From assembly GCF_027925245.1 (NCBI RefSeq), contig NZ_BSDP01000001.1, positions 1,798,001-1,862,000 of the forward strand: 64,000 bases of DNA, given 5' to 3'. This document shows, one piece after another, positions 15,540 through 36,244 of the stretch. Origin of the DNA: Agromyces rhizosphaerae. Lineage in GTDB: Bacteria; Actinomycetota; Actinomycetes; Actinomycetales; Microbacteriaceae. A program made the translations under genes and the position numbers. Under the pieces are notes generated by a model, which saw only the letters and a program-made list of their open reading frames with translations, made no database searches and was not told the origin of the DNA. Position 1 is the first letter of the stretch, and every line of letters starts with the position of its first letter.

Positions 15540-15546
15540 GCGCCCC

Positions 15547-15930: not shown

Positions 15931-15945
15931 AAGGATAGACCCGAC

Positions 15946-17028: not shown

Positions 17029-17098
17029 GACTTTCTCCATTCTCGGCGGGTTCCTCGCGGTCGGCGTTCCGCTGTGCAGAAGGCCTCCCGCGAATTGC

Positions 17099-18943: not shown

Positions 18944-20115
18944 CCGACCACTCCCTGCCGGCCGATGGCGCCCGGGGGCCGCTCGCCGGCGTGCGCGTGA
19001 TCGAACTGGGCCAGTACATCTCGGGCCCGTACGCGGCGAAGCTGCTGGCCGACCTGGGCGCCGACGTGATCAAGGTGGAGTCGCCCGACGGCGACCCGAT
19101 GCGCAGGTGGGAGGGCAGCGGCACGTACAGCCCGCAGTTCGCCGCCTACAACCGCGGCAAGCGCGGGGTCGTGCTCGACCTGAAGGACCCGGAGGGCCTG
19201 GAGCGTCTGCTCGAACTCGCCGAGGGCGCCGACGTGCTGATCGAGAACTTCCGCCCTGGGGTCGCCGAGCGCCTCGGCTTCGGCCCCGGGGTGCTGCGCG
19301 CCCGCAACCCGCGGCTCATCTCGTGCGCCATCACGGGCTTCGGCCCCGAGGGCCCCTACGCGAAGCGCCCCGCCTACGACACGGTGATCTCGGCGGTCGG
19401 CGGCATGTACAGCCAGGTCGTGCCCGACAGCGTGCTGCGGCCGCTCGGGCCGGCGTTCTCCGACCTGCTGTCGGGCATGTCGGCCGCGCAGGCCGTGCTC
19501 GCCGCGCTCCACGCCCGCGAGGCGCGCGGCGAGGGCGAGCACCTCGAGGTGTCCATGGTCGGCTCGCTCATCGACTTCGTGACCGAGGCCGCGTCGACCT
19601 ATCTCGAGACCGGGCAGGTCGCCGCGCCCGACTCGCGGCCCCGGCGCGCGCAGGCCTACGCGTGCGTGGGCTCCGACGGCAAGGCGTTCGTGATCCACAT
19701 GTCGGTGCCCGAGAAGTTCTGGACCGGCCTGCTCGAGGTGCTCGAACGCCCCGACCTCGCCGACGATCCGCGCTTCGCGACGCGCGAGGGACGCGTGCGC
19801 AACTACGACGAGCTCGACGTCGAACTGAAGGCCATCACCGCGACCGAGCCCCGCGAGCACTGGATGCAGCGGCTCGCCGCGCACGACATCCCGCACGGCC
19901 CGCTGAACACCGTGGCCGACCTGTTCGACGACCCGCAGGTCGCCGTGATGGGCCTGGTCGAGGAGATCGCGAGCCCGGCCGGTGGCACCGTCCGCGTGCC
20001 CGCGCCGAGCACGCGGTTCCACCGCAGCGGCCGGCCCGAGCTGCGCGCCGCGCCGCTGCTCGGCGCCGACACCGACGCCCTCACCCGGCCGCGCACCGAA
20101 GGAGCCCGCGCATGA
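18940..20115 (+). CDS. Class III CoA-transferase (CaiB/BaiF family)
   Basis: A 391-residue enzyme with the family opening LAGVRVIELGQYISGPYAAKLLADLGADVIKVE, RGKRGVVLDLK, and the catalytic-Asp region RPAYDTVIS. It should move CoA from one organic acid to another in the cytoplasm. In this operon it would activate an acid released from the ring-cleavage route. ATG overlaps the OsmC-like stop, and its own stop overlaps the next gene. Confidence 0.92.
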   Translation: MTDHSLPADGARGPLAGVRVIELGQYISGPYAAKLLADLGADVIKVESPDGDPMRRWEGSGTYSPQFAAYNRGKRGVVLDLKDPEGLERLLELAEGADVLIENFRPGVAERLGFGPGVLRARNPRLISCAITGFGPEGPYAKRPAYDTVISAVGGMYSQVVPDSVLRPLGPAFSDLLSGMSAAQAVLAALHAREARGEGEHLEVSMVGSLIDFVTEAASTYLETGQVAAPDSRPRRAQAYACVGSDGKAFVIHMSVPEKFWTGLLEVLERPDLADDPRFATREGRVRNYDELDVELKAITATEPREHWMQRLAAHDIPHGPLNTVADLFDDPQVAVMGLVEEIASPAGGTVRVPAPSTRFHRSGRPELRAAPLLGADTDALTRPRTEGARA

Positions 20116-20975
20116 GCATCCCCGACGACCTCGTCGCCATCGACGCGCACACCCACCCGCAGACCGAGGAGTTCCTCGCCGCCATGGGGTCGCGACACAC
20201 GCAGATGGCGAAGCACTTCGGCCGCGAGCGGCCCGTGGTCTCGTTCGCCGAGCAGGCCGACCAGTACCGCGACCGGCGCATGATGGCGGTCATCGTGAAC
20301 TCCGACTCGGAGACGACCTCCGGCATCCCCGGCGCGCCGAACGACCTGCTCGGCCGGGCGCAGGCCGACCACCCCGACGTCTTCCTCGCCTTCGCCGGCA
20401 TCGACCCGTGGAAAGGCGAAGCCGCGATCGCCGAGATCCGCCGCATGCACGCCGAGTACGGCATCAGGGGCGTCGGCGAGCTGAACCCGGCACGCCAGAA
20501 GTTCCTGCCGAACGACCGTCGGTTCTTCCCGATCTGGGAGACCTGCGCCGAGCTCGGGCTCGTGGTCATGTTCCATTCCGGCTTCCCGGGTGCGGGCGCG
20601 GGCACGCCCGGCGGCGGTGGGTACCGTCTCGAGAACGCCAGGCCCGTGCCCTACATCGACGACGTCGCCGCCGAGTTCCCCGAACTCAAGATCATCAGCG
20701 CGCACCCCGCGTGGCCGTGGCACCTCGAGAACCTCGCGATGGTCTGGCACAAGTCGAACGTCTACCTCGACCTCTCCGGCTGGGCGCCGAAGTACCTGCC
20801 CCCGGAGGTCGTGCGCTACGCGGACTCGCTCATCACCGACCGGGTGCTGTTCGGGTCGGACTGGCCGGTCATGACGGCCGACCGCTGGATGCGCGAGTTC
20901 GACGACCTCGGACTCAAGGAGACGTCCAGGCAGAAGATCCTGCTGGACAACGCCCGGACCCTGTTCGGGCTCTGA
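20112..20975 (+). CDS. Amidohydrolase-2 family metal-dependent hydrolase/decarboxylase
   Basis: A 287-residue TIM-barrel. Metal ligands are visible as DAHTH (about 11-15), a lone His in ISAHPAWPW and the Asp in LFGSDWP. The family includes decarboxylases such as ACMSD and gamma-resorcylate decarboxylase, and hydrolases/hydratases acting after meta-cleavage (oxalomesaconate hydratase). Next to a LigAB-type dioxygenase, a role on the ring-cleavage substrate or product is likely, but decarboxylase and hydrolase cannot be separated from sequence alone. Confidence 0.85.
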   Translation: MSIPDDLVAIDAHTHPQTEEFLAAMGSRHTQMAKHFGRERPVVSFAEQADQYRDRRMMAVIVNSDSETTSGIPGAPNDLLGRAQADHPDVFLAFAGIDPWKGEAAIAEIRRMHAEYGIRGVGELNPARQKFLPNDRRFFPIWETCAELGLVVMFHSGFPGAGAGTPGGGGYRLENARPVPYIDDVAAEFPELKIISAHPAWPWHLENLAMVWHKSNVYLDLSGWAPKYLPPEVVRYADSLITDRVLFGSDWPVMTADRWMREFDDLGLKETSRQKILLDNARTLFGL

Positions 20976-21068
20976 CCGGGTGCCGCGCCGGGGGTTCCGT
21001 CCACCGCCGGTCGCGGCATCCGATCGCCCTCGACCCCCCGCACTCGACCCCGACGGAAGGCGGCACGC

Positions 21069-21911
21069 ATGGCCGAACTCGTGATGGCGGCGGCGACGCC
21101 GCACAACCCGCTGCTCTGGCGAGCGATGCGCGACCCGATGCCCGACGACCTCGCCGCGGTCGCGGGCAACTTCGCGCGCATACGCGAGACCATGCGCGAG
21201 CTCGAGGTGGACGTGCTCGTCGTCGTCGGCACCGACCACATCCGCCAGTTCTTCTTCGACCACGCCCCCGCGTTCGTCGTCGGCAAGGCCGCGCAGTACC
21301 ACGGCACCTACGAGAACGAGGTGCGCACCTTCGGCATGGAGTACGTCGAGCTGACGGGGCATCCGGAGCTCGCCGAACGCATCGCCGGCCGCGAGCTGCT
21401 GCCCGAGGCGATCGACTTCGCCGTGAGCCACGAGTGGCGCCTCGACCACGGCTTCGTGATCCCGCTGCAGTACCTGCGGCCCGAGCTCGACCTGCCGATC
21501 GTGCCGATCCACACCAACGCGACCCTGCCGCCGCTGCCCTCGCCGCGCCGGTTCGCGGTGCTCGGCGAGCACCTGCGCGAGACGATCGCCGCCTGGGAGT
21601 CCGACGCGCGCGTCGCGCTCATCACCTCGGGCCACATGGCGACCGACGTCGGCGGCCCGAGGCAGTTCGCCGGCTCGCCCGACCCCGCGTTCGACGCCGA
21701 CGCGGTCGCCTGGATGCGCGACGGCGACCTCGAGGGCGCGGTGAACGGATGCCGCTTCGATCGCGTCATGGCCGCGGGCAACGTGACCTACCAATACGTG
21801 AACGTGATCACGGCGCTCGCCGCGATGGGCGGCCGGCCCGCCGACCTCGCGGAGGCGACCGAGTCGCGCTTCGCGTCCAGCCCGTTCTTCATGTGGAGGA
21901 AGCCGGCATGA
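21069..21911 (+). CDS. Extradiol ring-cleavage dioxygenase, LigB-type catalytic subunit
   Basis: A 280-residue class III extradiol dioxygenase subunit. ATPHNPLL supplies the first metal His (residue 12), VVVGTDH the second, and SHEWRLDHGFVIPL the conserved His-rich middle stretch. It should use Fe(II) to open a catecholic or hydroxylated heterocyclic ring. GGAAGGCGG precedes the ATG after a 93-nt gap from the amidohydrolase. It overlaps the small subunit gene. The true aromatic substrate is not known. Confidence 0.88.
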   Translation: MAELVMAAATPHNPLLWRAMRDPMPDDLAAVAGNFARIRETMRELEVDVLVVVGTDHIRQFFFDHAPAFVVGKAAQYHGTYENEVRTFGMEYVELTGHPELAERIAGRELLPEAIDFAVSHEWRLDHGFVIPLQYLRPELDLPIVPIHTNATLPPLPSPRRFAVLGEHLRETIAAWESDARVALITSGHMATDVGGPRQFAGSPDPAFDADAVAWMRDGDLEGAVNGCRFDRVMAAGNVTYQYVNVITALAAMGGRPADLAEATESRFASSPFFMWRKPA

Positions 21912-22295: not shown

Positions 22296-23294
22296 TCAGC
22301 CGGTCGCGATGTCGATGGCGTGACCGGCGATCGCGGCCGACGTGTCGACGTCGTGCATCCAGAGCGGCACGGCGGCTGCGCGGATGCCCGCCGAGACGAG
22401 CGACGACGTACTCGCGGCATCCGCCTCGTCGACCAGCCACGCGTCGAGCAGCCCGGCGTGCGAGCTCGCGCCGTAGTGGCGCGCGACCGCAGCGGCATCC
22501 GTCGCCACCCCGATCGCCGTGAGGCACGCATCGGCCATGCCGCGCACGACCGAGCCCGCGATGATCGGCGAGACGCCGACGACGGGGGCGGATGCGGCGG
22601 TGATCGCGTCGCGCACGCCCGGCACGCCGAGGATCGGGCCGATCGAGACGACCGGGTTCGAGGGGGCGAGCATGATGAGGTCGGCGTCCGCGAGGGTGTC
22701 GAGCACGCCCGGGGCGGGGCGCGAGACCTCGATGTCGAGCTGGCGGAACGACCGCGCGCGCATCGTCGCGCGGTGGCGGGTCCACCACTCCTGGAAGTGC
22801 ATCTCACGGCTGCCGGTCGGCGCCTCGGGGTCGTCGACGAGCACCTGGGTGTCGATCTCGTGGTCGGTGACCGGGTGCAGGCGCGCACCGAGCGTCCAGC
22901 GCTGCTGGAGTCGCTCGGCGACCTGCGTGGGCGTCCTCCCGTCGCGCAGCCACGAGGTGCGGGCGATGTGCGTGCCGAGGTCGAGGTCGCCGAGGGTGAA
23001 CCACGGCCAGCCGACGCCCCACGCGGCGAGCTCGTCGCTCACCCGCTCGGTCTCGCCGGCACGGCCCCAGCCACGGACCTCGTCGTTCACGCCCGCGAGG
23101 GCGTAGAGCAGCGAGTCGAAGTCGGGCATCAGGCGCAGCCCCGCGAGCCAGAGGTCGTCGGCCGTGTTGACGATCACGTCGATCTCGGCGGTCGTGCCGC
23201 CCTCCCCGTCGGGCCAGCGGCGGATGCACTCCTCGCGCAGCCCGCGCGTGAACCGCGCGCCCCCGACACCGCCCGCGAGCACCACGATCCGCAT
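22296..23294 (-). CDS. cofD: 2-phospho-L-lactate transferase (F420-0 synthesis)
   Basis: A 332-residue CofD/FbiA enzyme. It joins a phospho-lactate/enolpyruvate donor to the deazaflavin Fo, giving (dehydro)F420-0, the committed F420 step. The start MRIVVLAGGVGGARF with GGVGG at 8-12, VNTADDLWLAGLRLMPDFD, and the late APSNPVVSIGPIL motif are diagnostic. It starts with ATG 23294, and TAGGCT lies 6 nt upstream, indicating a leaderless mRNA. Its usual partner CofE/FbiB is not in the window. It is convergent with the dioxygenase operon. Confidence 0.95.
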   Translation of the reverse strand: MRIVVLAGGVGGARFTRGLREECIRRWPDGEGGTTAEIDVIVNTADDLWLAGLRLMPDFDSLLYALAGVNDEVRGWGRAGETERVSDELAAWGVGWPWFTLGDLDLGTHIARTSWLRDGRTPTQVAERLQQRWTLGARLHPVTDHEIDTQVLVDDPEAPTGSREMHFQEWWTRHRATMRARSFRQLDIEVSRPAPGVLDTLADADLIMLAPSNPVVSIGPILGVPGVRDAITAASAPVVGVSPIIAGSVVRGMADACLTAIGVATDAAAVARHYGASSHAGLLDAWLVDEADAASTSSLVSAGIRAAAVPLWMHDVDTSAAIAGHAIDIATG

Positions 23295-24079: not shown

Positions 24080-25660
24080 TCAGTAGCCGCCGGCGGCGTG
24101 GTGGTGGGCCGCGGTCGCGAGCGCGTCGGCCACGTCGTCGATGCCCTCGCGCACGACGCCGACGGTGACGCGCACGAAGTCGCGTGGGCGTCGCGAGGCC
24201 GGCCCGCCGGTCCGCGACGAAGGTCCGACGGCCCGCGCGGGCGAACCGGCGAGCGACCCGCCGGCCCCAGCGGCATCCGCCCCCGCCGCCAGGAACGGCG
24301 TGCCCGCCGCGACCCGGATGCCCCCGGCCGCGAGCTGCACGAGCGCCGATCGCTCGCTGAGCACCGGCACCCACAGGTTGATGCCGTCGGCCGGCGCGAC
24401 GTCGACCCCCCGCGCGCGAAGCGCGTCGCCGAGCGCGCGCTGGCGCGTGTAGTACTGCCGGCGCGCCTCGGCGACGGCATCGATCGAGGCACCGTCGGTG
24501 AGCAGGTCGAGGAGGATGCCCTGGAGCATCCGCGAGGTCCAGCCCGGGCCGATCATGCGGCGCGCGATCACGCGCTCGACGAGGTGGCGCGGCCCGCCGA
24601 GGGCGGCGATGCGCAGGTCGGGTCCGTGCGACTTCGAGAAGCTGCGCACGTGCACCACGCGCTCGGGCAGCCACGTGCCGAGCGTCACGTCGCCCTCGGT
24701 CGAGATGAGGCCCGAGTGGTCGTCCTCGACCACGAGCAGGTGGTCGGTATCGGGCGCGTTCCGGATGACCCCCGCCAGCGCCTCGGCCCGCTCGGGCGTC
24801 ATGGACGCGCCGGTCGGGTTCTGCGCGCGCGGTTGCAGCAGCACGGCGGCGGGGCGGCGCAGCAGGGCGGCCGCGAGCGACTCGGGCACCATGCCCGACG
24901 CGTCCATGCGCACCGGCACGGGCTCGGCGCCCAGCAGTTCGATCAGGTCGAGGAACGGCGGGAAGCCCGGATGCTCCACCACGACGCGATCGCCCAGGCG
25001 CACGACCTGCTCGAGCGTGCGGCTGATCGCGTCGAGCGCGCCGTCGACCACCATGATCGTCTCCGCCTGCGCGGGCCATGAGGACGCGAGCACCGCGGCG
25101 AGCTCCGGGATCACGGGCTCCTGCTGGTAGCTGCCGGTCTCGGCGCGGGCCGAGACGCGCGAGAGCGCGGGCCCGAGCGGCGGCAGCAGCAGCGGGTCGG
25201 GCGTGCCGCGCGAGAGGTCGAGGCGCACGGGGTCGTCGGGGGCGGCCATGCCGCGCATGCGCGGGGCCAGCCAGGTCGGCGCGGTATCCCGCACGAAACT
25301 GCCCGCGCGACCGCGCGACTCGATCAACCCCGCGCGGGCGAGCGCCTGCCACGACTGGCTGATCGTGGCGGGGCTCACCCCGAGCGCGGTGCCGAGCTCG
25401 CGCACGGTGGGCAGACGGATGCCGGGGGCCAGGTCGCCGTCGTTGATCAGGCGTGCGAGCACGGCAGCGATGGCCCGCGGGGAGCGATCGGGGAATTCGG
25501 GAGCGACGCTCAGCCCGGGGAACAGCGCGCCGAGGTCGGGCGCATCCGAAGCGGCATCCGTCACCGACGCACCCGCGCGAGAGCCGGACGACGCCGGCTC
25601 ACCGGCATCCGTCGCCCCTCGCACCGTCTCACCGCCCACACGAATACTCGACACGACCAT
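24080..25660 (-). CDS. MocR/PdxR-type GntR regulator with aminotransferase-like domain
   Basis: A 526-residue regulator. A GntR winged helix (LPTVRELGTALGVSPATISQSWQALARAGLI, about 100-130) is followed by a type I aminotransferase-like domain containing QPRAQNPTGASMT, VEDDHSG and SFSKSHGPDLR, whose Lys should hold pyridoxal phosphate. MocR proteins sense PLP or amino compounds. It diverges from the pyrimidine-type catabolic operon that contains an aminotransferase, so it is the likely local regulator. AGGAGG lies close to ATG 25660. The C-terminal 130 residues contain a low-complexity Gly/Ala insert. Confidence 0.87.
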   Translation of the reverse strand: MVVSSIRVGGETVRGATDAGEPASSGSRAGASVTDAASDAPDLGALFPGLSVAPEFPDRSPRAIAAVLARLINDGDLAPGIRLPTVRELGTALGVSPATISQSWQALARAGLIESRGRAGSFVRDTAPTWLAPRMRGMAAPDDPVRLDLSRGTPDPLLLPPLGPALSRVSARAETGSYQQEPVIPELAAVLASSWPAQAETIMVVDGALDAISRTLEQVVRLGDRVVVEHPGFPPFLDLIELLGAEPVPVRMDASGMVPESLAAALLRRPAAVLLQPRAQNPTGASMTPERAEALAGVIRNAPDTDHLLVVEDDHSGLISTEGDVTLGTWLPERVVHVRSFSKSHGPDLRIAALGGPRHLVERVIARRMIGPGWTSRMLQGILLDLLTDGASIDAVAEARRQYYTRQRALGDALRARGVDVAPADGINLWVPVLSERSALVQLAAGGIRVAAGTPFLAAGADAAGAGGSLAGSPARAVGPSSRTGGPASRRPRDFVRVTVGVVREGIDDVADALATAAHHHAAGGY

Positions 25661-25873: not shown

Positions 25874-26722
25874 ATGACGATCGTTCGAGCGGCGATCACG
25901 CAGACGACGTGGACCGGCGACAAGGACTCGATGCTCGACAAGCACGAGCAGTTCGCGCGCGGCGCCAAGGAGCAGGGCGCCCAGGTGATCTGCTTCCAGG
26001 AGCTGTTCTACGGCCCCTACTTCGGCATCACCGAGGACGTGAAGTACTACGACTTCGCCGAGCCGGCCGACGGCCCGATCGTGCAGCGCTTCGCCGCGCT
26101 CGCGGCCGAGCTCGGCATGGTGATGGTGCTCCCGATCTACGAGGAGGAGCAGCCCGGGGTGTACTACAACACCGCGGTCGTCGTCGACAACGACGGCACC
26201 ATCCTCGGCAAGTACCGGAAGCACCACATCCCGAACCTCGACAAGTTCTGGGAGAAGTTCTACTTCCGCCCCGGCAACCTCGGCTACCCGGTCTTCCAGA
26301 CCGCGGTCGGGCCGATCGGCGTGTACATCTGCTACGACCGGCACTTCCCCGAGGGCTGGCGCGAGCTGGGACTCAACGGCGCGCAGATCGTGTTCAACCC
26401 GAACGCGACCAAGCCCGGCCTCTCGAACCGCCTGTGGGAGATCGAGCAGCCCGCCGCCGCCGCGGCCAACGGGTACTTCGTCGCCGCGCCCAACCGCGTC
26501 GGCCGCGAGGACAACGAGTACGGCGACCTCGCCGTCGACTTCTACGGCTCGAGCCAGTTCTGCGACCCGCAGGGCAACATCGTCGGCGAGTACGGCTCGC
26601 AGCACGACGAGGAGATCGTCGTGCGCGACCTCGACATGGACATGATCCGGCAGGTGCGCAACGCCTGGCAGTTCTACCGCGACCGTCGCCCCGAGTCGTA
26701 CACCTCGATCCCGAAGCCGTGA
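25874..26722 (+). CDS. Beta-ureidopropionase (N-carbamoyl-beta-alanine amidohydrolase), nitrilase family
   Basis: A 282-residue nitrilase-superfamily enzyme. The Glu-Lys-Cys triad is visible as QELFYG (Glu43), KYRKHHIPN (Lys116) and YICYDRHFPEGWR (Cys153). The last motif is characteristic of beta-ureidopropionases. It should convert N-carbamoyl-beta-alanine (or the beta-aminoisobutyrate form) to the beta-amino acid, CO2 and ammonia in the cytoplasm, the third step of reductive uracil/thymine breakdown. CAGGAGGCAGC precedes the ATG. It is the first gene of the operon, followed by the enzyme for the preceding step. Confidence 0.92.
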   Translation: MTIVRAAITQTTWTGDKDSMLDKHEQFARGAKEQGAQVICFQELFYGPYFGITEDVKYYDFAEPADGPIVQRFAALAAELGMVMVLPIYEEEQPGVYYNTAVVVDNDGTILGKYRKHHIPNLDKFWEKFYFRPGNLGYPVFQTAVGPIGVYICYDRHFPEGWRELGLNGAQIVFNPNATKPGLSNRLWEIEQPAAAAANGYFVAAPNRVGREDNEYGDLAVDFYGSSQFCDPQGNIVGEYGSQHDEEIVVRDLDMDMIRQVRNAWQFYRDRRPESYTSIPKP

Positions 26723-26819
26723 GACGTCGCCACGGGGCAGCCGGCACCTCTCGCGGATGCCCCGGGGCGACCACCCGCGCACCAGACATCCCGACCCGCA
26801 TCCAGCGAAGGAGCGCACC

Positions 26820-28256
26820 ATGGCAACCACCCTCATCACCGGCGGCACGGTCGTCAGCGCGACCGGCCGGGCGAACGCCGACGTGCTCGTCGACGGCGAG
26901 CGCATCGTCGCCGTGCTCGAGCCCGGCAGCGAGCTGCTCGGCACCGACCTGAAGTCGGGCGTCGACACCGTGATCGACGCGACCGGCAAGTACGTCATTC
27001 CGGGCGGCATCGACGCCCACACCCACATGGAGCTGCCGTTCGGCGGCACCGCCGCGATCGACACGTTCGAGACCGGCACCCGAGCGGCCGCGTACGGCGG
27101 CACGACCTCGATCGTCGACTTCGCCGTGCAGCGCTACGGCGAGCGGGTGCAGGACGGCCTCGACGCCTGGCACGCCAAGGCCGCCGGCGAGTGCGCCATC
27201 GACTACGGCTTCCACCAGATCATCGGCGGCGTCGACGCCGACGCGATCGCGGCGATGAAGACGCTGCCCGACCAGGGCGTGACGAGCTTCAAGCTCTTCA
27301 TGGCCTACCCGGGCGTCTTCTACTCCGACGACGCGCAGGTGCTGAAGGCCATGCAGGTCAGCCGCGACACCGGCATGCTCACGATGATGCACGCCGAGAA
27401 CGGCCCCGCCATCGACGTGCTCGCCGAGCAGCTGATCGAGGAGGGCAAGACCGACCCGTACTTCCACGGCATCGCCCGCGCCTGGCAGATGGAGGAGGAG
27501 GCGACGCACCGCGCGATCATGCTCGCGAACCTCACCGGCGCGCCGCTGTACGTCGTGCACGTCTCGGCCAAGCAGGCCGTCGAGCAGCTCGCCTGGGCGC
27601 GCGACAAGGGCCAGAACGTCTTCGGCGAGACCTGCCCGCAGTACCTCTACCTCTCGCTCGAGGAGCAGCTCGGCGCCTCGAGCGAGGAGTGGGGCAACTT
27701 CGAGGGCGCCAAGTGGGTGTGCTCGACGCCGCTGCGCTCGCGCGAGGAGGGCCACCAGGACGCCATGTGGCAGGCGCTGCGCACGAACGACCTGCAGATG
27801 GTCTCGACCGACCACTGCCCGTTCTGCATGAAGGACCAGAAGGAGCTCGGCCTCGGCGACTTCCGCAAGATCCCGAACGGCATCGGCTCGATCGAGCACC
27901 GCATGGACCTCATGTACCAGGGCGTCGTGACCGGCGAGATCACCCTCGAGCGCTGGGTCGAGCTCACGAGCACGACCCCGGCGCGCATGTTCGGCATGTA
28001 CGGGCAGAAGGGCGTGATCCAGCCCGGCGCCGACGCCGACATCGTCGTCTACGACCCGAACGGGCACACCTCGATCGGCCTCGGCAAGACGCACCACATG
28101 GCGATGGACCACTCCGCCTGGGAGGGCTACGAGATCGACGGGCACGTCGACACGGTGCTCTCGCGCGGCAAGGTCATCGTCGACGACAACGCCTACCTCG
28201 GCGCCAAGGGCGACGGCCGCTTCATCAAGCGGGGACTCACCCAGTACCTCGTCTAG
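26820..28256 (+). CDS. hydA: Dihydropyrimidinase / D-hydantoinase
   Basis: A 478-residue cyclic amidohydrolase. It carries DAHTHMELPFGG (His67, His69), the carboxylated Lys158 in SFKLFMAYPG, and the later metal-site residues in HVSAKQ and STDHCPF. The MELPFGGT stretch and the STDHCPF ending are typical of dihydropyrimidinases. It opens dihydrouracil/dihydrothymine to N-carbamoyl-beta-amino acids, feeding the beta-ureidopropionase gene upstream. GAAGGAG precedes the ATG. Hydantoins or related cyclic imides are alternative substrates. Confidence 0.94.
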   Translation: MATTLITGGTVVSATGRANADVLVDGERIVAVLEPGSELLGTDLKSGVDTVIDATGKYVIPGGIDAHTHMELPFGGTAAIDTFETGTRAAAYGGTTSIVDFAVQRYGERVQDGLDAWHAKAAGECAIDYGFHQIIGGVDADAIAAMKTLPDQGVTSFKLFMAYPGVFYSDDAQVLKAMQVSRDTGMLTMMHAENGPAIDVLAEQLIEEGKTDPYFHGIARAWQMEEEATHRAIMLANLTGAPLYVVHVSAKQAVEQLAWARDKGQNVFGETCPQYLYLSLEEQLGASSEEWGNFEGAKWVCSTPLRSREEGHQDAMWQALRTNDLQMVSTDHCPFCMKDQKELGLGDFRKIPNGIGSIEHRMDLMYQGVVTGEITLERWVELTSTTPARMFGMYGQKGVIQPGADADIVVYDPNGHTSIGLGKTHHMAMDHSAWEGYEIDGHVDTVLSRGKVIVDDNAYLGAKGDGRFIKRGLTQYLV

Positions 28257-28262
28257 GGGCGA

Positions 28263-28302
28263 GCGGATGCCCCGGGCGCAACGCCGGCCCAGGGGCATCC
28301 GC
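28263..28302. repeat. GGATGCC-word inverted repeat between hydA and LLM gene
   Basis: GCGGATGCCCC (28263-28273) and GGGGCATCCGC (28292-28302) are exact reverse complements 7 nt after the stop codon. It may act as a partial terminator or mRNA-stabilising hairpin within the operon. Confidence 0.6.
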
Positions 28303-28334
28303 CCTCGCACCACCCGCTCAGGAAGGAACGCATC

Positions 28335-29351
28335 ATGGACTTCGGAGTCGTCCTCCAGACCAACCCGCCCTCGTCGCGCGTCGTGCAGCTCTCGCAGCTC
28401 GCCGAGGTGCACGGCTTCAGCACCGCGTGGACCTTCGACTCGCACCTGCTCTGGCAGGAGCCGTACGTCATCCACTCGCAGATCCTCGCCGAGACCAAGC
28501 GCATGAAGGTCGGCCCGTTCGTGACGAACCCGGCCACGCGCGACTGGACCGTCACCGCGTCGACCTTCGCGACGCTCAACGAGATGTACGGCAACCGCAC
28601 GATCTGCGGCATCGGCCGCGGCGACTCGGCGGTGCGCGTGACCAACGGCAAGCCCGTCACCATGCGGGAGCTGCGCGAGTCGATCCACGTGATCCGCGAG
28701 CTCGGCAACTCGCGCGAGGTCGAGTACAAGGGCTCGAAGATCCGCTTCCCGTGGTCGGTCGGCTCCGAGCTCGAGGTGTGGGTCGCCGCATACGGGCCGA
28801 TGGCGCTGAAGCTCACGGGCGAGGTGGGCGACGGGTTCATCCTGCAGCTCGCCGACGTCGACATCGCGAAGTGGATGATCCGCACCGTGCGCGAGGCCGC
28901 CGAGGCCGCGGGCCGCGACCCCGACAGCATCACGTTCTGCGTCGCGGCGCCGTTCTACGTCGGCGACGACTGGGAGCACATGCGCGAGCAGTGTCGCTGG
29001 TTCGGCGGCATGGTCGGCAACCACGTGGCCGACATCGTGACCAAGTACGGCACCGACGGCGACGTGCCGAAGGCGCTGACCGACTACATCGCGGGACGCA
29101 CGGGCTACGACTACAACACGCACGGCAAGGCCGACAACGACCACGTCGACTTCGTGCCCGACGAGATCGTCGACCGGTTCTGCCTGCTCGGCACCGCCGA
29201 GGACCACATCGCGAAGCTCGAGGAGCTCAAGGCGATCGGCGTCGACCACTTCGCCGGCTACCTCCAGCACGACAACAAGGAGGAGACGCTGCGGGTCTAC
29301 GGCGAGACCGTGATCCCCGCGCTCTCCGACCTCGTCCTGGCCAAGGAATGA
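28335..29351 (+). CDS. LLM-class F420-dependent oxidoreductase, TIGR03842-like (cluster 2)
   Basis: A 338-residue luciferase-like TIM-barrel. It opens DFGVVLQTNPPSSRVV and contains WTFDSHLLWQEPYVI, NPATRDWTVTAS, GNRTICGIGRGDSAVRV and CRWFGGMVGNHVADIV, the pattern I recall for the TIGR03842 group. Members are repeatedly found beside dihydropyrimidinase genes. The substrate is unproven. Here it lies where a dihydropyrimidine dehydrogenase would be expected, so it is the best local candidate for pyrimidine-ring reduction or a related redox step using F420 or FMN (inference). CAGGAAGGAACG precedes the ATG. Confidence 0.88.
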   Translation: MDFGVVLQTNPPSSRVVQLSQLAEVHGFSTAWTFDSHLLWQEPYVIHSQILAETKRMKVGPFVTNPATRDWTVTASTFATLNEMYGNRTICGIGRGDSAVRVTNGKPVTMRELRESIHVIRELGNSREVEYKGSKIRFPWSVGSELEVWVAAYGPMALKLTGEVGDGFILQLADVDIAKWMIRTVREAAEAAGRDPDSITFCVAAPFYVGDDWEHMREQCRWFGGMVGNHVADIVTKYGTDGDVPKALTDYIAGRTGYDYNTHGKADNDHVDFVPDEIVDRFCLLGTAEDHIAKLEELKAIGVDHFAGYLQHDNKEETLRVYGETVIPALSDLVLAKE

Positions 29352-30313
29352 CGGGAACCCTGCAGGAACAGACGACGGATGCCGCCCAGGCGGCCTCCGC
29401 ACCCGACCGCGCGCCCGCGCCGGGCGCGCGTCGCCGTCGCGGCGGCCGCCAGGCCGCCCGCTGGGTCTGGGGCGTCGCCGGCGTCCTGCTCGTCGCGGTG
29501 ATCTGGGAGCTGTACAAGTGGCTGGCCCCGGCCGACGGGGTCGTGATCGGCGAGACGCGCGTGCTGCCGCGCACGACCGACCTGGCCATGCCGCACGTGT
29601 GGGACATGCTCGCCCGCCTCGGCGAGCCCGTCACCCGCGCGCCGGGCGCGAACGTGCTGTGGCTCGAGATCGCGCTCGCTGCGCTCGTCACCCTCGGCAT
29701 CGCCGCCGCCGGCTGGCTCGTCGGCGTCATCGTCGGCATCGGCCTCGCGCTCGTGATGCAGCGCTGGCGGCTCGCCGAGTGGGGCCTGCTGCCGTGGATC
29801 ATCGTCAGCCAGACCGTGCCGCTCATCGCGTTCGCGCCGGTCGTGCGCAGCTGGGGCTCGCGCGTCGAGATCGGCGCGTTCGAGTGGCAGGACTGGATGT
29901 CGGTCGCGCTCATCGCCAGCTACCTCGCGTTCTTCCCCATCGCCGTGGGGGCGCTGAAGGGCCTGCAGTCGCCCGACCGCATCCACACCGAGCTCATGAA
30001 GACGTACGCCGCGGGCTACTGGCAGACCCTGTTCCGGCTGCGCTTCCCGGCATCCGTGCCCTACCTGCTTCCGGCCCTGCGCCTGGGCGCCGCGAACGCC
30101 GTGATCGGCGCGGTCGTGGCCGAGGTGTCGACGGGCCTGCAGGGCGGCATCGGCCGCCTCCTCATCCAGTTCGCCGGGCAGGCGTCGGGCGACCCCGCGA
30201 AGGCGTGGGCCCCGATCTTCGGCGCCATCGTGCTCGGCCTCGTCGCCGCGGGCTCGATCGCGCTGCTCGGCGTCATCCTGCAGAACTACCGCCGCGTGGA
30301 GGTCACCGCATGA
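29348..30313 (+). CDS. ABC transporter permease (SsuC class), cluster 2 first subunit
   Basis: A 321-residue permease with a long Ala/Arg-rich cytoplasmic N-terminus and about six helices. The EAA-type loop is MKTYAAGYWQTLFRLRFPAS. It overlaps the LLM gene by ATGA, so transport and redox genes are co-translated. An insert with VRSWGSRVEIGAFEWQDW lengthens it relative to cluster-1 permeases. Confidence 0.88.
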   Translation: MTGTLQEQTTDAAQAASAPDRAPAPGARRRRGGRQAARWVWGVAGVLLVAVIWELYKWLAPADGVVIGETRVLPRTTDLAMPHVWDMLARLGEPVTRAPGANVLWLEIALAALVTLGIAAAGWLVGVIVGIGLALVMQRWRLAEWGLLPWIIVSQTVPLIAFAPVVRSWGSRVEIGAFEWQDWMSVALIASYLAFFPIAVGALKGLQSPDRIHTELMKTYAAGYWQTLFRLRFPASVPYLLPALRLGAANAVIGAVVAEVSTGLQGGIGRLLIQFAGQASGDPAKAWAPIFGAIVLGLVAAGSIALLGVILQNYRRVEVTA

Positions 30314-31134
30314 GCACCGCACCGACGACGACCGCAGCCGTGCGGGTCACCGGGGTCGACAAGACGTTCGAGACCCGGTCGGGCGTCGTGCACGCCCTGC
30401 AGGGCATCGACCTCGAGGTGGCGGCGGGCGAGTTCGTCTCGCTCATCGGGCCCTCGGGGTGCGGCAAGTCGACGCTCATGCGCCTCATCGCCGACCTCGA
30501 CGAGCCCACCGCCGGCACGGTCGAGGTGAACGGCACGTCCGCCGCGCAGGCGCGCAAGGACCAGGCGTACGGCATCGCGTTCCAGCAGGCCGGCCTGCTG
30601 CCGTGGCGCACGGTCGCCGCGAACGTGTCGCTGCCGCTCGAGCTGCACGGCCCGTCGGGTGCGGCCCGTCGTGAGCGCGTGGCCGACCTGCTCGAGATGG
30701 TCGGCCTCTCCGACTTCGCCGACCGCTACCCCGACCAGCTCTCGGGCGGCATGCAGCAGCGCGTCGCGATCGCCCGGTCGCTCGCCGAGAAGCCCGGCAT
30801 CCTGCTGATGGACGAGCCGTTCGGCGCGCTCGACGAGATGACCCGCGAGAAGATGCAGACCGACCTCGTGCGCATCTGCGCCGAGACCGGTGCCGCGGTC
30901 GTGTTCGTCACGCACTCGATTCCCGAGGCCGTGTTCCTGTCCGACCGGGTGGTCGTGATGAGCCCGCGCCCGGGGCGCATCCAGGAGATCGTGCCGATCC
31001 AGGTGGGGGCGGATGCCGCGCGCGACGACCACCTCCGCGAGGAGTCGGTCTTCTTCGAGCACGTCACCGCGGTGCGCGAGGCGCTGCACGGCGGCACCGC
31101 CGCCTCGACCGCCCGGGGGGTCGAGACCCGATGA
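30310..31134 (+). CDS. ABC transporter ATPase (SsuB/TauB class), cluster 2
   Basis: A 274-residue ATPase: Walker A GPSGCGKST, FQQAGLLPWRTVAANV, signature LSGGMQQR, Walker B ILLMDEPFGALDEM and the switch HSIPEA. It lies between two permease genes with ATGA overlaps on both sides. It would drive uptake of a pyrimidine, hydantoin or related compound for this cluster. Confidence 0.9.
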   Translation: MSTAPTTTAAVRVTGVDKTFETRSGVVHALQGIDLEVAAGEFVSLIGPSGCGKSTLMRLIADLDEPTAGTVEVNGTSAAQARKDQAYGIAFQQAGLLPWRTVAANVSLPLELHGPSGAARRERVADLLEMVGLSDFADRYPDQLSGGMQQRVAIARSLAEKPGILLMDEPFGALDEMTREKMQTDLVRICAETGAAVVFVTHSIPEAVFLSDRVVVMSPRPGRIQEIVPIQVGADAARDDHLREESVFFEHVTAVREALHGGTAASTARGVETR

Positions 31135-31925
31135 CCCTCGCCACGCTGAGCCCGCGCGCCGAGACGACGGTGCGCATCGTCGCGCCGGTCACGGTCGGGC
31201 TCCTCGTGCTGGGCGTCTGGCAGTTCCTCGTCACCGTCGTCGGCGTCAGCGACTACCTGCTGCCGAGCCCGGCGTCGATCGTCGAGGAGCTCGTCGCGTT
31301 CTGGCCCTCGATCGTGTCGGCCACGGTCATCACCGGCACCAACGCCCTGATCGGCCTCGTCGTCGGCACCGTGCTCGGCGTCGGCCTCGCGGCGCTCGCC
31401 GCGCGCTGGCGCGCGGTCGACGACATGTCCGCACCGATCGTCGCGGCGCTCGCCGTGATCCCGATCGTCGCACTCGCGCCCGTGCTCAACTCGATGTTCG
31501 GCGCCGACAGCCAGTTCGGCCGGCAGGCCATCGCCGCGCTCGCGTCGTTCGTGCCCGTGTTCATCAACACCCTGCGCGGGTTCCGGCAGACCCTGCCCGT
31601 GCATCGCGACCTCATGCGCGCCTACGCCGCGAGTGGCAGCCAGGTCTTCCGCACCGTGACGCTGCCGACCGCGTTGCCGTTCGTGCTCACGGGCATCCGC
31701 ATCGCCTCGTCCCTCGCGGTGATCTCCGCGCTCGTCGCCGAGTACTTCGGCGGCCCGCGCGGCGGCCTCGGCGGGCTCATCTCGACGTCGGCCGCCTCGA
31801 GCGCCTACGCCCGCGCGTGGGCGTACGTCGTGGCATCCATCGCCCTCGGCCTGCTCTTCTACCTCGTGACGCTCGGCATCGAGCGCCTCGTGCTGCGCCG
31901 CATCCCGGCCGGAGGTGCGCGATGA
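31131..31925 (+). CDS. ABC transporter permease (SsuC class), cluster 2 second subunit
   Basis: A 264-residue membrane protein with about six helices, LLPSPASIVEEL near the N-terminus and the EAA-type loop MRAYAASGSQVFRTVTLPTA. It overlaps the ATPase gene by ATGA. The next 121 nt contain only a ribosome site for the binding protein. Confidence 0.9.
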   Translation: MTLATLSPRAETTVRIVAPVTVGLLVLGVWQFLVTVVGVSDYLLPSPASIVEELVAFWPSIVSATVITGTNALIGLVVGTVLGVGLAALAARWRAVDDMSAPIVAALAVIPIVALAPVLNSMFGADSQFGRQAIAALASFVPVFINTLRGFRQTLPVHRDLMRAYAASGSQVFRTVTLPTALPFVLTGIRIASSLAVISALVAEYFGGPRGGLGGLISTSAASSAYARAWAYVVASIALGLLFYLVTLGIERLVLRRIPAGGAR

Positions 31926-32046
31926 CGCGCGCCGCCGCCGGCATCGCGGCACCCGGACCCGGTACGCGAGGCGTACCGGACGGACGCCCTCGCACCCGGA
32001 GGCGACCTGCACCACCAGCACGCACCGAGCACTCGAAAGGACTGAC

Positions 32047-33198
32047 ATGAAGCACAGCACTCGCCGCGGAATCGCGGCCGGAGCGTTCGCCCTCTCGGCG
32101 GCGCTCGTCCTCGCAGCCTGTTCCTCGTCTGACGACTCCGGAGACACCGGGTCGGACGCGGGCGGCGACGAGCTCACCGAGGTGAAGCTCCAGCTCCAGT
32201 GGCTCCCGCAGGGCCAGTTCGCCGGCTACTTCGCAGCGGTCGAGAACGGCTACTTCGAGGAGGAGGGCCTGGAGGTCGAGATCATCCCGTCCGGCGGCGA
32301 CATCGTGCCCCAGGACGCCCTCGCCAACGGCGACGTCGACTACGCGATCGCGTGGGTGCCGAAGGTGCTCGGCTCGATCGAGGCCGGCGCCAACCTCACC
32401 AACATCGCGCAGATCTTCCAGCGCTCGGGCACCCTGCAGGTGTCGTGGGCCGACTCCGACATCTCGTCGGTGGCGGACTTCGAGGGCAAGAAGATCGGCT
32501 CGTGGGGCTTCGGCAACGAGTGGGAGATCTTCGCGGCCATGGCCGCCGAGGGCCTCGACTCGTCGACCGTCGAGATCATCACCCAGGACTTCAACATGAA
32601 CGCCTTCCTGCAGGGCGACATCGACGCGGCCCAGGCGATGACCTACAACGAGTACGCGCAGCTGCTCGAGACGCCGAACCCCGACACGGGCGAGCTGTAC
32701 ACGGCCGACGACTTCAACGTCATCAGCTACCAGGACACCGTCGGCGCCATGCTGCAGGACGCGATCTGGGCCGACACCGAGCGCCTCGAGTCCGACGCCG
32801 AGTACGAGGAGATGACGATCAGCTTCCTGAAGGCCGTCATCAAGGGCTGGGCGTTCGTGCGCGACAACCCCGAGGAGGCGTCGTCGATCACCATCGCCGC
32901 CGGTTCCGGCTGGGGTCCGAGCCACGAGCTCTGGATGGTCAACGAGACCAACAAGCTCATCTGGCCGGCGCCCGCGGGCATCGGTGTCATCGACGAGGCG
33001 GCCTGGGACCAGACCGTCGAGGGCGCGCTGAGCGCCGTCAACGAGGTCGGGGCCAGCCCCATCACGACCGAGCCGCCCGCGACCGCCTGGTCGAACCAGT
33101 ACATCGAGCAGGCCATCGCCGAGCTCGGTGACGAGGTCGACACGACCGGTGAGTCGTTCTCGCCGATCGAGGTGGAGCTCCTGGAGGGCGGCAACTAG
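32047..33198 (+). CDS. NMT1-type solute-binding lipoprotein (cluster 2)
   Basis: A 383-residue lipoprotein with signal peptide and lipobox VLAACS. The mature part begins KLQLQWLPQGQFAGYFAAVENGYFEEEGLEVEI and contains GGDIVPQDALANGDVDYAIAW, closely matching the NMT1/THI5-like domain used for pyrimidine-type ligands (HMP, riboflavin and pyrimidine precursors). GAAAGGACTGAC precedes the ATG. It should hand its ligand to the permease pair upstream, and the WLPQ motif supports a heterocyclic ligand. Confidence 0.92.
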   Translation: MKHSTRRGIAAGAFALSAALVLAACSSSDDSGDTGSDAGGDELTEVKLQLQWLPQGQFAGYFAAVENGYFEEEGLEVEIIPSGGDIVPQDALANGDVDYAIAWVPKVLGSIEAGANLTNIAQIFQRSGTLQVSWADSDISSVADFEGKKIGSWGFGNEWEIFAAMAAEGLDSSTVEIITQDFNMNAFLQGDIDAAQAMTYNEYAQLLETPNPDTGELYTADDFNVISYQDTVGAMLQDAIWADTERLESDAEYEEMTISFLKAVIKGWAFVRDNPEEASSITIAAGSGWGPSHELWMVNETNKLIWPAPAGIGVIDEAAWDQTVEGALSAVNEVGASPITTEPPATAWSNQYIEQAIAELGDEVDTTGESFSPIEVELLEGGN

Positions 33199-33218
33199 CC
33201 ATGCGCACCACCGGCGGC

Positions 33219-33297
33219 CGGATGCCACGGGCGGAGACCCCGCTCGCGGCGTCCGGCCGTCGCCGTGCCGGGCGGGTCCGCGCCAGCGTGGCATCCG
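33219..33297. repeat. GGATGCC-word inverted repeat before aminotransferase gene
   Basis: CGGATGCCACG (33219-33229) and CGTGGCATCCG (33287-33297) are exact reverse complements around a 57-nt spacer. They occupy most of the gap between the lipoprotein and aminotransferase genes. Confidence 0.55.
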
Positions 33298-33343
33298 CCC
33301 GGCACCACCACCAGACCGCACCGCGCCGCACGAGGGGGAACCC

Positions 33344-34672
33344 ATGACCGACACCGCCGCACCGAACCCCGATCTCGACGAGCTCGCCCGCGAGCTCGAC
33401 CACGCCCACGTGTTCCACTCGTGGTCCGCGCAGGGCTCGCCGCCGCAGCTCACCATCGCCGGCGGCAAGGGCACGAAGGTCTGGACGCACGGGGGCGACG
33501 AGTACCTCGACTTCTCGAGCCAGCTCGTCAACGTGAACATCGGGCACCAGCATCCGTCGGTCGTGTCCGCGATCCGCGAGCAGGCGTCGCTGCTGTCGAC
33601 CATCGGCCCGCCCATCGTGAACCTCGCGCGCGGCGAGGCGGCCAAGCGCATCACGGCGCGAGCGCCGCGCCGGTTCCACAAGGTGTTCTTCACCAACGGC
33701 GGGGCGGATGCGAACGAGAACGCCGTGCGCATGGCGCGCCTGCACACCGGGCGCGACAAGGTGCTCTCGACGTACCGCTCGTATCACGGCAACACCGGCG
33801 CCGCCGTCGTCGCGACGGGCGACTGGCGCCGCATCCCGAACGAGTACGCCCGCGGGCACGTGCACTTCTTCGGGCCGTACCTGTACCGCTCCGAGTTCTG
33901 GGCGACGACGCCCGAGGAGGAGTCGGAGCGCGCGCTGCAGCACCTGCGGCGCGTGATCGAGAGCGAGGGGCCGTCGTCGATCGCGGCGATCCTGCTCGAG
34001 ACGATTCCGGGCACCGCCGGCATCATGCTGCCGCCGCCCGGGTACCTGGCAGGGGTGCGCGAGCTTGCGACGCAGCACGGCATCGTGCTGATCCTCGACG
34101 AGGTCATGGCCGGGTTCGGGCGCACCGGGCGCTGGTTCGCGTTCGACGGGTACGACGTCGAGCCCGACCTCATCACCTTCGCGAAGGGCGTGAACTCGGG
34201 CTACGTGCCGGTCGGCGGCGTGCTCATCGCCGAGGAGATCGCGGCGGACTTCGATGCGAAGGTGTTCCCGGGCGGGCTGACCTACTCGGGGCATCCGCTC
34301 GCCGCCGCCTCCATCGTCGCCGCGCTCGACGCGATGGAGTCGGAGGGCATCGTCGACAACGCCCGGCGCGTGGGCGCCGAGGCGATCGGGCCCGGGCTCG
34401 AGGCGCTCGCCGAGAAGCACGAGATCATCGGCGAGGTGCGCGGCGAGGGCGTGTTCTGGGCGATGGAGCTCGTGGCCGACCGGGCGACGCGCGAGCCCGT
34501 GGCGCCCGCGGTCGTCGCCCGGGCGAAGGGCGAGCTCGCCGCGCGCGGGCTGCTCGCGTTCACCGCGGAGAACCGCATCCACGTCGTGCCGCCGTGCGTC
34601 GTCACCGACGACGAGGTGGGGCAGGCGATGGACATCTACGACGAGGTGCTGGGGCTCGACCTGCTCGGCTGA
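33344..34672 (+). CDS. Class III omega-aminotransferase (beta-alanine/4-aminobutyrate:acceptor type)
   Basis: A 442-residue PLP enzyme. It shows KVFFTNGGADANENAVRMAR, SYHGNTGAA, LILDEVMAGFGRTG and the PLP lysine in ITFAKGVNSGYVPVGG (Lys281). This is the class that converts beta-alanine or beta-aminoisobutyrate to malonate or methylmalonate semialdehyde. It follows beta-ureidopropionase in the pathway and precedes the semialdehyde dehydrogenase gene. GAGGGGGA precedes the ATG. Confidence 0.92.
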   Translation: MTDTAAPNPDLDELARELDHAHVFHSWSAQGSPPQLTIAGGKGTKVWTHGGDEYLDFSSQLVNVNIGHQHPSVVSAIREQASLLSTIGPPIVNLARGEAAKRITARAPRRFHKVFFTNGGADANENAVRMARLHTGRDKVLSTYRSYHGNTGAAVVATGDWRRIPNEYARGHVHFFGPYLYRSEFWATTPEEESERALQHLRRVIESEGPSSIAAILLETIPGTAGIMLPPPGYLAGVRELATQHGIVLILDEVMAGFGRTGRWFAFDGYDVEPDLITFAKGVNSGYVPVGGVLIAEEIAADFDAKVFPGGLTYSGHPLAAASIVAALDAMESEGIVDNARRVGAEAIGPGLEALAEKHEIIGEVRGEGVFWAMELVADRATREPVAPAVVARAKGELAARGLLAFTAENRIHVVPPCVVTDDEVGQAMDIYDEVLGLDLLG

Positions 34673-34708
34673 GCGGGCGACCGACGGCACGGTAAGGGAG
34701 AGGGAATC

Positions 34709-36244
34709 ATGACGGAGACGACGATGACCCCGCAGGCGCAGGTGCCGACGGGTGCCACGGTGATGGGCCACTGGATCGACGGGCACGAGGTCGCCGGCGA
34801 AGGTTCGCGCACCGGGCCGGTGTACGACCCCGCGCTGGGCGTCGTGCAGAAGGAGGTGCGCTACGGGTCGGCGAGCGACGTCGACACGGCCGTGCAGGTC
34901 GCGCGCACCGCGTTCGCGAGCTGGAGCGAGGTGTCGGTCGCGAAGCGCCAGGGCATCATGTTCGCCTTCCGCGAGCTGCTGAACGCGCGCCGCGGCGAGC
35001 TCGCCGAGATCCTCACGGCCGAGCACGGCAAGGTGCTGTCGGATGCCGGCGGCGAGATCGCCCGCGGGCTCGAGGTCGTCGAGTTCGCGTGCGGCCTCGG
35101 CCACCTGCTGAAGGGCGAGTTCAGCGACAACGTGTCGACCGGCGTCGACGTGTACTCGCTGAAGCAGCCGCTCGGCGTGGTGGGCATCATCAGCCCGTTC
35201 AACTTCCCGGCGATGGTGCCGCTCTGGTTCTTCCCGCTCGCGATCGCGGCCGGCAACACGGTCGTGCTGAAGCCCAGCGAGAAGGACCCGACGGCGGCGA
35301 ACTGGATGGCCGCACTGCTGAAGGAGGCAGGCCTGCCCGACGGCGTGTTCAACGTCGTGCACGGCGACAAGGAGGCCGTCGACGCGCTGCTCACGCACGA
35401 GCACGTCGCCTCGATCTCGTTCGTCGGCTCGACGCCGATCGCGCGGTACGTCTACGAGACCGCGACCGCGCACGGCAAGCGCGTGCAGGCGCTCGGCGGG
35501 GCCAAGAACCACATGCTCGTGCTGCCCGACGCCGACCTCGACCTCGTGGCCGACTCGGCCGTGAACGCGGGCTTCGGCTCGGCGGGCGAGCGGTGCATGG
35601 CGATCAGCGTCGTGATGGCGGTCGACTCGATCGCCGACGAGCTGGTGGGCAAGATCACCGAGCGGATGTCGCGCCTGACCACCGGCGACGGCCGACGCGG
35701 CTGCGACATGGGCCCGCTCATCACCTCCGCGCACCGCGACAAGGTGTCGGGCTACCTCGACGTGGCCGCCGCTGACGGCGCCACCGTCGTGGTCGACGGG
35801 CGCGAGGCGACGTTCGACGGGGCATCCGACGGCTTCTGGCTCGGGCCGACCCTCATCGACAAGGTGCCGACCTCGTCGACGGTCTACACCGACGAGATCT
35901 TCGGGCCGGTGCTGTCGGTCGTGCGGGTCGAGGGCTACGAGGAGGGCATGGAGCTCATCGAGCGCGTGCCGTACGGCAACGGCACGGCGATCTTCACGAA
36001 CGACGGCGGCGCCGCCCGGCGCTTCCAGCGCGAGGTGCAGGTCGGGATGGTCGGCGTGAACGTGCCGATCCCGGTGCCGGTGGCGTACCACTCGTTCGGC
36101 GGCTGGAAGGCGTCGTTGTTCGGCGACGCCAAGGCGTACGGCCCGCACGGCGTGGAGTTCTTCACGCGCGAGAAGGCCGTCACGTCGCGCTGGCTCGACC
36201 CGAGCCACGGCGGGCTGAACCTGGGCTTCCCGCAGCACGACTGA
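34709..36244 (+). CDS. mmsA: CoA-acylating (methyl)malonate-semialdehyde dehydrogenase
   Basis: A 511-residue aldehyde dehydrogenase. The active-site Cys is in FGSAGERCMAIS (Cys296). GGAKNHMLVLPDADLD and GVNVPIPVPVAYHSFGGWK are typical of the MmsA/IolA group that makes acetyl-CoA or propionyl-CoA with NAD+. It closes the pathway uracil/thymine to beta-amino acid to semialdehyde to acyl-CoA. GGGAGAGGG precedes the ATG. Its stop overlaps the acetyltransferase start as TGATG. Confidence 0.95.
   Translation: MTETTMTPQAQVPTGATVMGHWIDGHEVAGEGSRTGPVYDPALGVVQKEVRYGSASDVDTAVQVARTAFASWSEVSVAKRQGIMFAFRELLNARRGELAEILTAEHGKVLSDAGGEIARGLEVVEFACGLGHLLKGEFSDNVSTGVDVYSLKQPLGVVGIISPFNFPAMVPLWFFPLAIAAGNTVVLKPSEKDPTAANWMAALLKEAGLPDGVFNVVHGDKEAVDALLTHEHVASISFVGSTPIARYVYETATAHGKRVQALGGAKNHMLVLPDADLDLVADSAVNAGFGSAGERCMAISVVMAVDSIADELVGKITERMSRLTTGDGRRGCDMGPLITSAHRDKVSGYLDVAAADGATVVVDGREATFDGASDGFWLGPTLIDKVPTSSTVYTDEIFGPVLSVVRVEGYEEGMELIERVPYGNGTAIFTNDGGAARRFQREVQVGMVGVNVPIPVPVAYHSFGGWKASLFGDAKAYGPHGVEFFTREKAVTSRWLDPSHGGLNLGFPQHD

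Follow-up and report, generated by a model that had tools for sequence, protein, structure and literature searches.

The reductive Pyd pathway of pyrimidine degradation is described with the components PydA, PydB, PydC, PydD and malonic semialdehyde dehydrogenase (MSDH). Its first enzyme occurs in ferredoxin and NAD(P)H variants, and PydA, PreA and PydAc are all members of the dihydroorotate dehydrogenase family (sections of PMC7332683). We analyzed a stretch of 64,000 nucleotides of the Agromyces rhizosphaerae genome (NZ_BSDP01000001.1, positions 1,798,001 to 1,862,000), in the following called the window, which lies inside a genome made up of a single contig of 3,607,789 bases. The window contains an operon of nine genes on the plus strand (25874–36244). 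Like the Pyd system in the cited sections of PMC7332683, it has a dihydropyrimidinase gene, and the same operon encodes candidate homologues for the ureidopropionase, the beta-alanine aminotransferase and the malonic semialdehyde dehydrogenase. Unlike that system, it is devoid of PydA, PreAT and PydAc and instead encodes an oxidoreductase of the luciferase-like monooxygenase (LLM) family that is linked to F420 genes. We propose that the operon is a Pyd pathway with a non-orthologous first enzyme, i.e., that the LLM of family TIGR03842 reduces uracil and thymine with F420H2 and so takes over the role of PydA, and we put the probability of this reading at about 0.83.

Several described enzymes come close to this arrangement in part. 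RutA is also an LLM enzyme and acts on uracil, as titles of its structure entries indicate, but it uses FMN and oxygen, and the genome has no RutA above cut-off. F420-dependent methylenetetrahydromethanopterin reductase (Mer) has a methanopterin substrate, and on its model TIGR03555 the window LLM reached only 132 bits, under the cut-off of 348.7. Ferredoxin-dependent PydAc from Clostridium chromiireducens is likewise a first-step variant with another electron donor; it is still a PydA homologue, whereas the enzyme found here is from a different family (PMC7332683, same sections). The closest published idea that we found is a prediction for Chloroflexota uric acid clusters, where a putative F420-dependent LLM replaces the PydA-like reductase YgfK/UacX; these clusters belong to a purine (yanthine) pathway and are given as prediction only (sections of PMC12507026). 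TIGR03842 was not mentioned as a term in the open-licence literature searched, PMC12507026 included. Narrow searches of this literature, which leave out most subscription papers, returned no description of F420 together with dihydropyrimidine formation, and the sections of PMC8305020 and PMC6279831 that we consulted had no bearing on the substrate question.

An LLM gene as probable substitute for PydA

The nine genes encode, in this order, a beta-ureidopropionase homologue, a dihydropyrimidinase, the TIGR03842 LLM, a permease, an ATPase, a second permease, an NMT1-type binding protein, a class III aminotransferase and a malonate/methylmalonate-semialdehyde dehydrogenase (MMSDH). The dihydropyrimidinase (26757–28256, plus strand, PydB role) matched TIGR02033 with 538.6 bits at a cut-off of 393, and its solved relatives are D-hydantoinase/dihydropyrimidinase structures (best 457.6 bits). 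A reading of the DNA letters without database searches (the sequence-only reading) had placed a TIGR03842-like LLM directly behind it. This was borne out, i.e., the LLM (28335–29351, plus strand) scored 588.7 bits on TIGR03842 against a curated cut-off of 295.45. Its nearest named protein relative, from Agromyces mangrovi, shares 93% identity. For the predicted structure (pLDDT 85.4), F420-enzyme entries filled ranks 1 to 15 of the structural matches; F420-dependent Mer was clearly the nearest structure, followed by the F420-reducing dehydrogenases Adf and F420-dependent glucose-6-phosphate dehydrogenase (FGD). Residues D35, S36, H37, W40, N65, R69, W71, N229, H230, Y258 and H263 of the LLM are invariant.

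The sequence-only reading had also found the cluster and the window to be free of a dihydropyrimidine dehydrogenase, and this holds for the whole genome. A search for PydA/PreA with PF01180 found one gene only, a quinone-dependent PyrD (TIGR01036, 382 bits, cut-off 200). As this is the only gene of the dihydroorotate dehydrogenase family, a PydA or PreA hidden elsewhere in the genome was ruled out, and the genome-wide check that the sequence-only reading had named did not refute it. Moreover, tblastn at E 1e-10 gave no match to PreA or PreT in the flanks of 120 loci.

We followed the LLM through 198 evenly drawn genomes of Actinomycetota with a completeness of at least 95, i.e., a sample of the phylum. 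TIGR03842 was above cut-off in 45 genomes from 12 families, the dihydropyrimidinase model TIGR02033 in 63, and PreA in a single one. Dihydropyrimidinase was present in 44 of the 45 TIGR03842 genomes, the exception (G141) being a draft of about 350 contigs, and PreA was above cut-off in none of the 45. Dihydropyrimidinase and LLM lay at most 15 kb apart on the same contig in 38 of these genomes, 51 kb apart in one and not on the same contig in six. Within the six families that have both states, dihydropyrimidinase occurred in 30/31 LLM genomes compared with 2/10 others (stratified permutation, p ~0.001). In the sole PreA genome (G163), PreA is located 1.3 kb from dihydropyrimidinase, and TIGR03842 is not above cut-off.

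Gene order was compared in 80 loci, which were retrieved by LLM similarity alone and are, to judge by their titles, mostly from Microbacteriaceae; genes were called at more than 40% identity with no coverage minimum. The ureidopropionase homologue, dihydropyrimidinase and LLM were collinear in 78 loci. In the remaining two, dihydropyrimidinase starts at the contig edge and the ureidopropionase gene is off the contig. Dihydropyrimidinase stood beside the LLM in all 80 loci, compared with 66 for the binding protein, 66 for the ATPase, 65 for the permease, 61 for the aminotransferase, 45 for the regulator and 36 for MMSDH; because some loci are short contigs, these numbers are minimum values. Such a gene order lies far outside what chance would give, and the LLM is tied less closely to the later steps and to the importer than to the ring step. 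A chance adjacency of LLM and dihydropyrimidinase was rejected by the co-occurrence statistics and the collinearity in 78 of the 80 loci.

None of these 80 loci has an NCS1 nucleobase:cation symporter homologue in its flank. A second set comprised 40 loci, taken from 40 of the 45 LLM genomes; such a homologue flanks 18 of them, including loci from genomes of 7 to 10 Mb. We rejected the view that the LLM travels with the ABC importer as a passenger, because it stays with dihydropyrimidinase where the flank holds an NCS1 symporter. From the co-occurrence with dihydropyrimidinase, the absence of PreA in 45 genomes and the NCS1 homologues in the flanks, we conclude that the LLM probably stands in the place of PydA.

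F420 genes on the chromosome and on plasmids

F420 as the cofactor of the LLM, which the sequence-only reading had suggested from family knowledge, is supported by the genomic context, i.e., by cof genes and FGD near the operon, by cof genes in Microbacterium flanks and by cof operons on plasmids. The only CofD match in the genome, cofD/fbiA (22296–23294, minus strand; TIGR01819, 301 bits, cut-off 257), is located about 2.6 kb from the operon. CofE, CofC and FGD are encoded just upstream of the window (C1:1794612-1797129) and are above curated cut-offs; together with cofD, all are at most 30 kb from the operon. Of the genes of an F420-producing bacterium, the genome has CofC at 111, CofD at 301 and CofE at 247 bits, each above its cut-off, but no FO synthase was detected with the CofH model. 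Among the sampled genomes, CofD was above cut-off in 43/45 with the LLM compared with 71/153 others, and CofH in 36/45 compared with 64/153. Three Microbacterium loci (L003, L005, L040) have cofE and cofD on one side of the operon and cofG and cofH on the other, and locus L052 also has cofG, cofH and cofD. In the fetched flanks of the 80 loci, cofD was found in 20 and cofG/cofH in four. As a separate observation, the A. rhizosphaerae genome (L206:9612-12129) has kept CofC, CofD, CofE and FGD with CofH undetected and is a possible FO-scavenging F420 user.

A plasmid of Leisingera caerulea carries the order cofG-cofH-cofD-cofC-cofE-npdG-TIGR03842, divergent from pntA-pntB-aminotransferase-Zn hydrolase-hydA-NCS1 symporter. 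Compared with the window proteins, its LLM has 45% and its dihydropyrimidinase 41% identity. Its candidate for the ureidopropionase is a Peptidase_M20, a family unrelated to the carbon-nitrogen hydrolase of the window; judged by these assignments, the enzyme of the ureidopropionase step differs and TIGR03842 is retained. The same complete cof operon with npdG ends in TIGR03842 on a Paracoccus alcaliphilus plasmid, where an ABC importer follows the LLM; the 25 kb opened of this plasmid contained no dihydropyrimidinase. On a Caballeronia plasmid, a TIGR03842-like gene is present as a tail only, with a Zn hydrolase and part of a transhydrogenase nearby, and in the opened stretches of the Paraburkholderia and Miltoncostaea plasmid F420 clusters no TIGR03842 was found. 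The apparent exchange of PydA for the LLM extends to other actinobacteria and, combined with F420 biosynthesis genes, to a plasmid of a marine bacterium.

Two further plasmids are related to this subject. On a Variovorax sp. PBL-E5 plasmid (L201, NZ_LR594673.1), an amidohydrolase, a carbon-nitrogen hydrolase, an LLM, npdG and cofGHDCE form one cluster, and this LLM is a distant relative of TIGR03842 (203 bits, under cut-off). Sinorhizobium meliloti R14 pSymA (L209, CP130052.1 40005-69117) carries cofD, cofC, a CofH-like stretch and a TIGR03619 LLM, together with an ArgE/DapE deacylase, PntAB, xanthine dehydrogenase-type subunits and diaminopropionate ammonia-lyase. By gene content this looks like a reductive uric acid pathway outside Chloroflexota with an F420 LLM replacing YgfK. 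For the S. meliloti strains GR4, KH35c and KH46, an fbi operon has been linked to nodule competitiveness (part of PMC8407117), and part of an F420 review states that F420 roles in bacteria outside Actinobacteria need experimental work. We consider it an even bet that the proteobacterial plasmid F420 operons serve reductive nucleobase catabolism, with TIGR03842 for pyrimidines (Leisingera, Paracoccus) and the TIGR03619 LLM for purines (Sinorhizobium pSymA), and that actinobacteria such as A. rhizosphaerae use this F420-dependent ring reductase too, in some cases with scavenged FO.

Other genes of the operon and the window

Profile matches recovered all the other genes that the sequence-only reading had named, i.e., a beta-ureidopropionase homologue, dihydropyrimidinase, aminotransferase, semialdehyde dehydrogenase and an NMT1-type importer. 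The beta-ureidopropionase homologue (N-carbamoyl-beta-alanine amidohydrolase, putative PydC role; 25874–26722, plus strand) matched the carbon-nitrogen hydrolase family PF00795 with 224 bits. Among its solved relatives, two are tied for the best score of 184.6 bits, namely 2vhh (CG3027-PA), which we take to be fly beta-alanine synthase, and 5h8i (N-carbamoylputrescine amidohydrolase); 8pt4 and 6ftq, both named beta-ureidopropionase, follow at 175 bits. An NCBIfam search with this protein gave no equivalog above cut-off.

The importer is encoded on the plus strand by permease 1 (29348–30313; PF00528, 71.7 bits), an ATPase (30310–31134; PF00005, 119 bits), permease 2 (31131–31925; PF00528, 69.3 bits) and an NMT1/THI5-like substrate-binding protein (31915–33198; PF09084, 128.8 bits). 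A long open reading frame at 29518–31134 conceals two of these genes, the first permease and the ATPase. Translational coupling of the LLM to the importer is probable, because the LLM stop overlaps the permease start in an ATGA at 29348–29351.

The class III aminotransferase (33128–34672, plus strand), probably acting on beta-alanine/beta-aminoisobutyrate in the PydD role, matched NF004718 with 720.9 bits (cut-off 472). This model is named only 'hypothetical protein'; the remaining matches are aminotransferases, and the solved relatives include class III aminotransferases, the best being taurine:2-oxoglutarate aminotransferase with 340 bits. The family match begins only at residue 82, and the true start is therefore probably downstream of 33128. 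The CoA-acylating MMSDH (34709–36244, plus strand) matched TIGR01722 with 673 bits (cut-off 448) and MMSDH structures with up to 575 bits. These model and structure matches assign both enzymes at family level, a level at which substrate specificity cannot be read.

Divergent from the operon lies a gene for a MocR-like regulator with GntR and aminotransferase folds (24080–25660, minus strand; PF00392, 51 bits; PF00155, 66.5 bits), which MocR-like NCBIfam models match, none above its cut-off. It is the probable pathway regulator. MocR-like regulators sense amino compounds via pyridoxal phosphate, and beta-alanine would be a natural ligand here.

A second module at about 10157–17040 contains a dihydroorotase/allantoinase-like amidohydrolase (~10157–11572), a TIGR03619-like LLM (~11575–12549; 157 bits, cut-off 167), an ABC ATPase (12574–13464) and an NMT1 binding protein (15946–17040, minus strand); perhaps it is another F420-dependent ring reduction route. 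Near CofD, the stretch 18278–21911 encodes an OsmC-like protein, a CaiB-type CoA transferase frame (under cut-offs), an Amidohydro_2 domain and a LigB-type ring-opening dioxygenase, and is possibly an aromatic catabolism cluster.

Proposed route, alternatives and meaning

In the route that we propose, the pyrimidine bases would be imported by the NMT1-type ABC importer here and by the NCS1 symporter in other lineages. The LLM would take a hydride from F420H2, with a potential near −340 mV for F420, and saturate uracil or thymine at the 5,6 double bond; dihydropyrimidinase would then open the ring of the resulting dihydropyrimidine. The carbon-nitrogen hydrolase would release CO2, NH3 and beta-alanine or beta-aminoisobutyrate. 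From these the aminotransferase would form malonate or methylmalonate semialdehyde, and MMSDH would convert the semialdehyde to acetyl-CoA or propionyl-CoA. In Leisingera, transhydrogenase and NpdG would feed NADPH into F420H2. The kinship with Mer, the pathway order and the Leisingera transhydrogenase with NpdG argue for reduction rather than oxidation.

Several points weigh against this proposal. TIGR03842 is a 'hypoth_equivalog' in NCBIfam, which means that the F420 label of the model is predicted as well, and we know of no assay for any member of the family. In the structural ranking, the last F420 entry (27.7) is tied with the first flavin entries (27.0). FO synthase was undetected in the A. 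rhizosphaerae genome and in two genomes of the same genus, G172 and G193 (0/3, searched with the CofH model TIGR03551 only), and CofH above cut-off was missing in 9/45 LLM genomes. F420 would thus depend on scavenged FO, or the LLM might use FMN instead. This gap is not peculiar to the operon, since 19/114 CofD genomes lack CofH above cut-off; that the genus may scavenge FO is our guess. NpdG as local F420 reductase reached only 76.5 bits, under its cut-off of 149.8, whereas FGD was above its cut-off. The proteobacterial context examined is from plasmids only, with two opened of 11 TIGR03842 records listed. Moreover, 19 dihydropyrimidinase genomes lack the LLM, and 18 of these also lack PreA above cut-off; TIGR02033 alone is therefore no marker of the pyrimidine pathway, and these 18 may contain hydantoinases. 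Hydantoins, too, are opened by dihydropyrimidinases and can be transported by NCS1 carriers.

The alternatives considered below overlap, and their odds and that of our preferred reading do not sum to one. The LLM might reduce a related ring, for example that of an unsaturated hydantoin, of a substituted uracil or of another N-heterocycle, within a hydantoin or xenobiotic pathway instead of uracil/thymine catabolism. TIGR02033 is named D-hydantoinase, several of the closest solved relatives of the dihydropyrimidinase are D-hydantoinases, the NMT1 importer does not reveal its substrate, and the window holds the second module with its dihydroorotase/allantoinase-like amidohydrolase and another LLM. 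We nevertheless find such a pathway unlikely, because aminotransferase and MMSDH suit beta-alanine/beta-aminoisobutyrate, the carbon-nitrogen hydrolase scores higher with beta-ureidopropionase-type enzymes (184.6 and 175 bits) than with D-carbamoylases (107), and a neighbour in Leisingera is annotated as NCS1 nucleobase:cation symporter, with homologues in the 18 actinobacterial loci.

Reduction of the pyrimidine ring with FMN or another flavin appears even less likely. Many LLM enzymes use FMN, several such entries are among the structural matches, and the FO synthase gap in the genus would fit. This has to be set against CofD in nearly all LLM genomes (43/45), complete cof operons that end in TIGR03842 on two alphaproteobacterial plasmids, CofC, CofD, CofE and FGD retained above cut-offs in the genome, and Mer as the clearly nearest structure.

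Less probable again is an LLM that, like FGD, makes F420H2 by oxidizing a pathway intermediate, with an unrecognised enzyme as ring reducer. The F420-reducing Adf and FGD do come next after Mer in structural rank, but the closest relatives are the Mer reductases, and the Leisingera cluster with transhydrogenase and NpdG suggests a demand for F420H2. Also, beside the LLM dihydropyrimidinase was found in 80/80 loci, compared with 61 for the aminotransferase and 36 for the dehydrogenase, which ties the LLM to the ring step. It is barely credible that the LLM acts as a RutA-like FMN monooxygenase, opening uracil with oxygen, given that the operon LLM is not among the 12 genome matches of the RutA model TIGR03612 (best other LLM 250 bits, cut-off 498.3), that a ring-opening oxygenase would not need dihydropyrimidinase and that the LLM is linked to F420 genes; with no RutA above cut-off in the genome, the Rut pathway was ruled out.

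If the LLM is indeed an F420H2-dependent uracil/thymine reductase, the textbook first step of pyrimidine catabolism would have a second, unrelated enzyme that works with a low-potential deazaflavin, not as an iron-sulfur flavoenzyme. About one in four of the Actinomycetota genomes sampled (45/198) would have this alternative first enzyme, and F420 would gain a role in nucleobase scavenging. If the plasmid operons do serve reductive nucleobase catabolism, two LLM clades would each have replaced an iron-sulfur flavoenzyme of the PydA/YgfK type.

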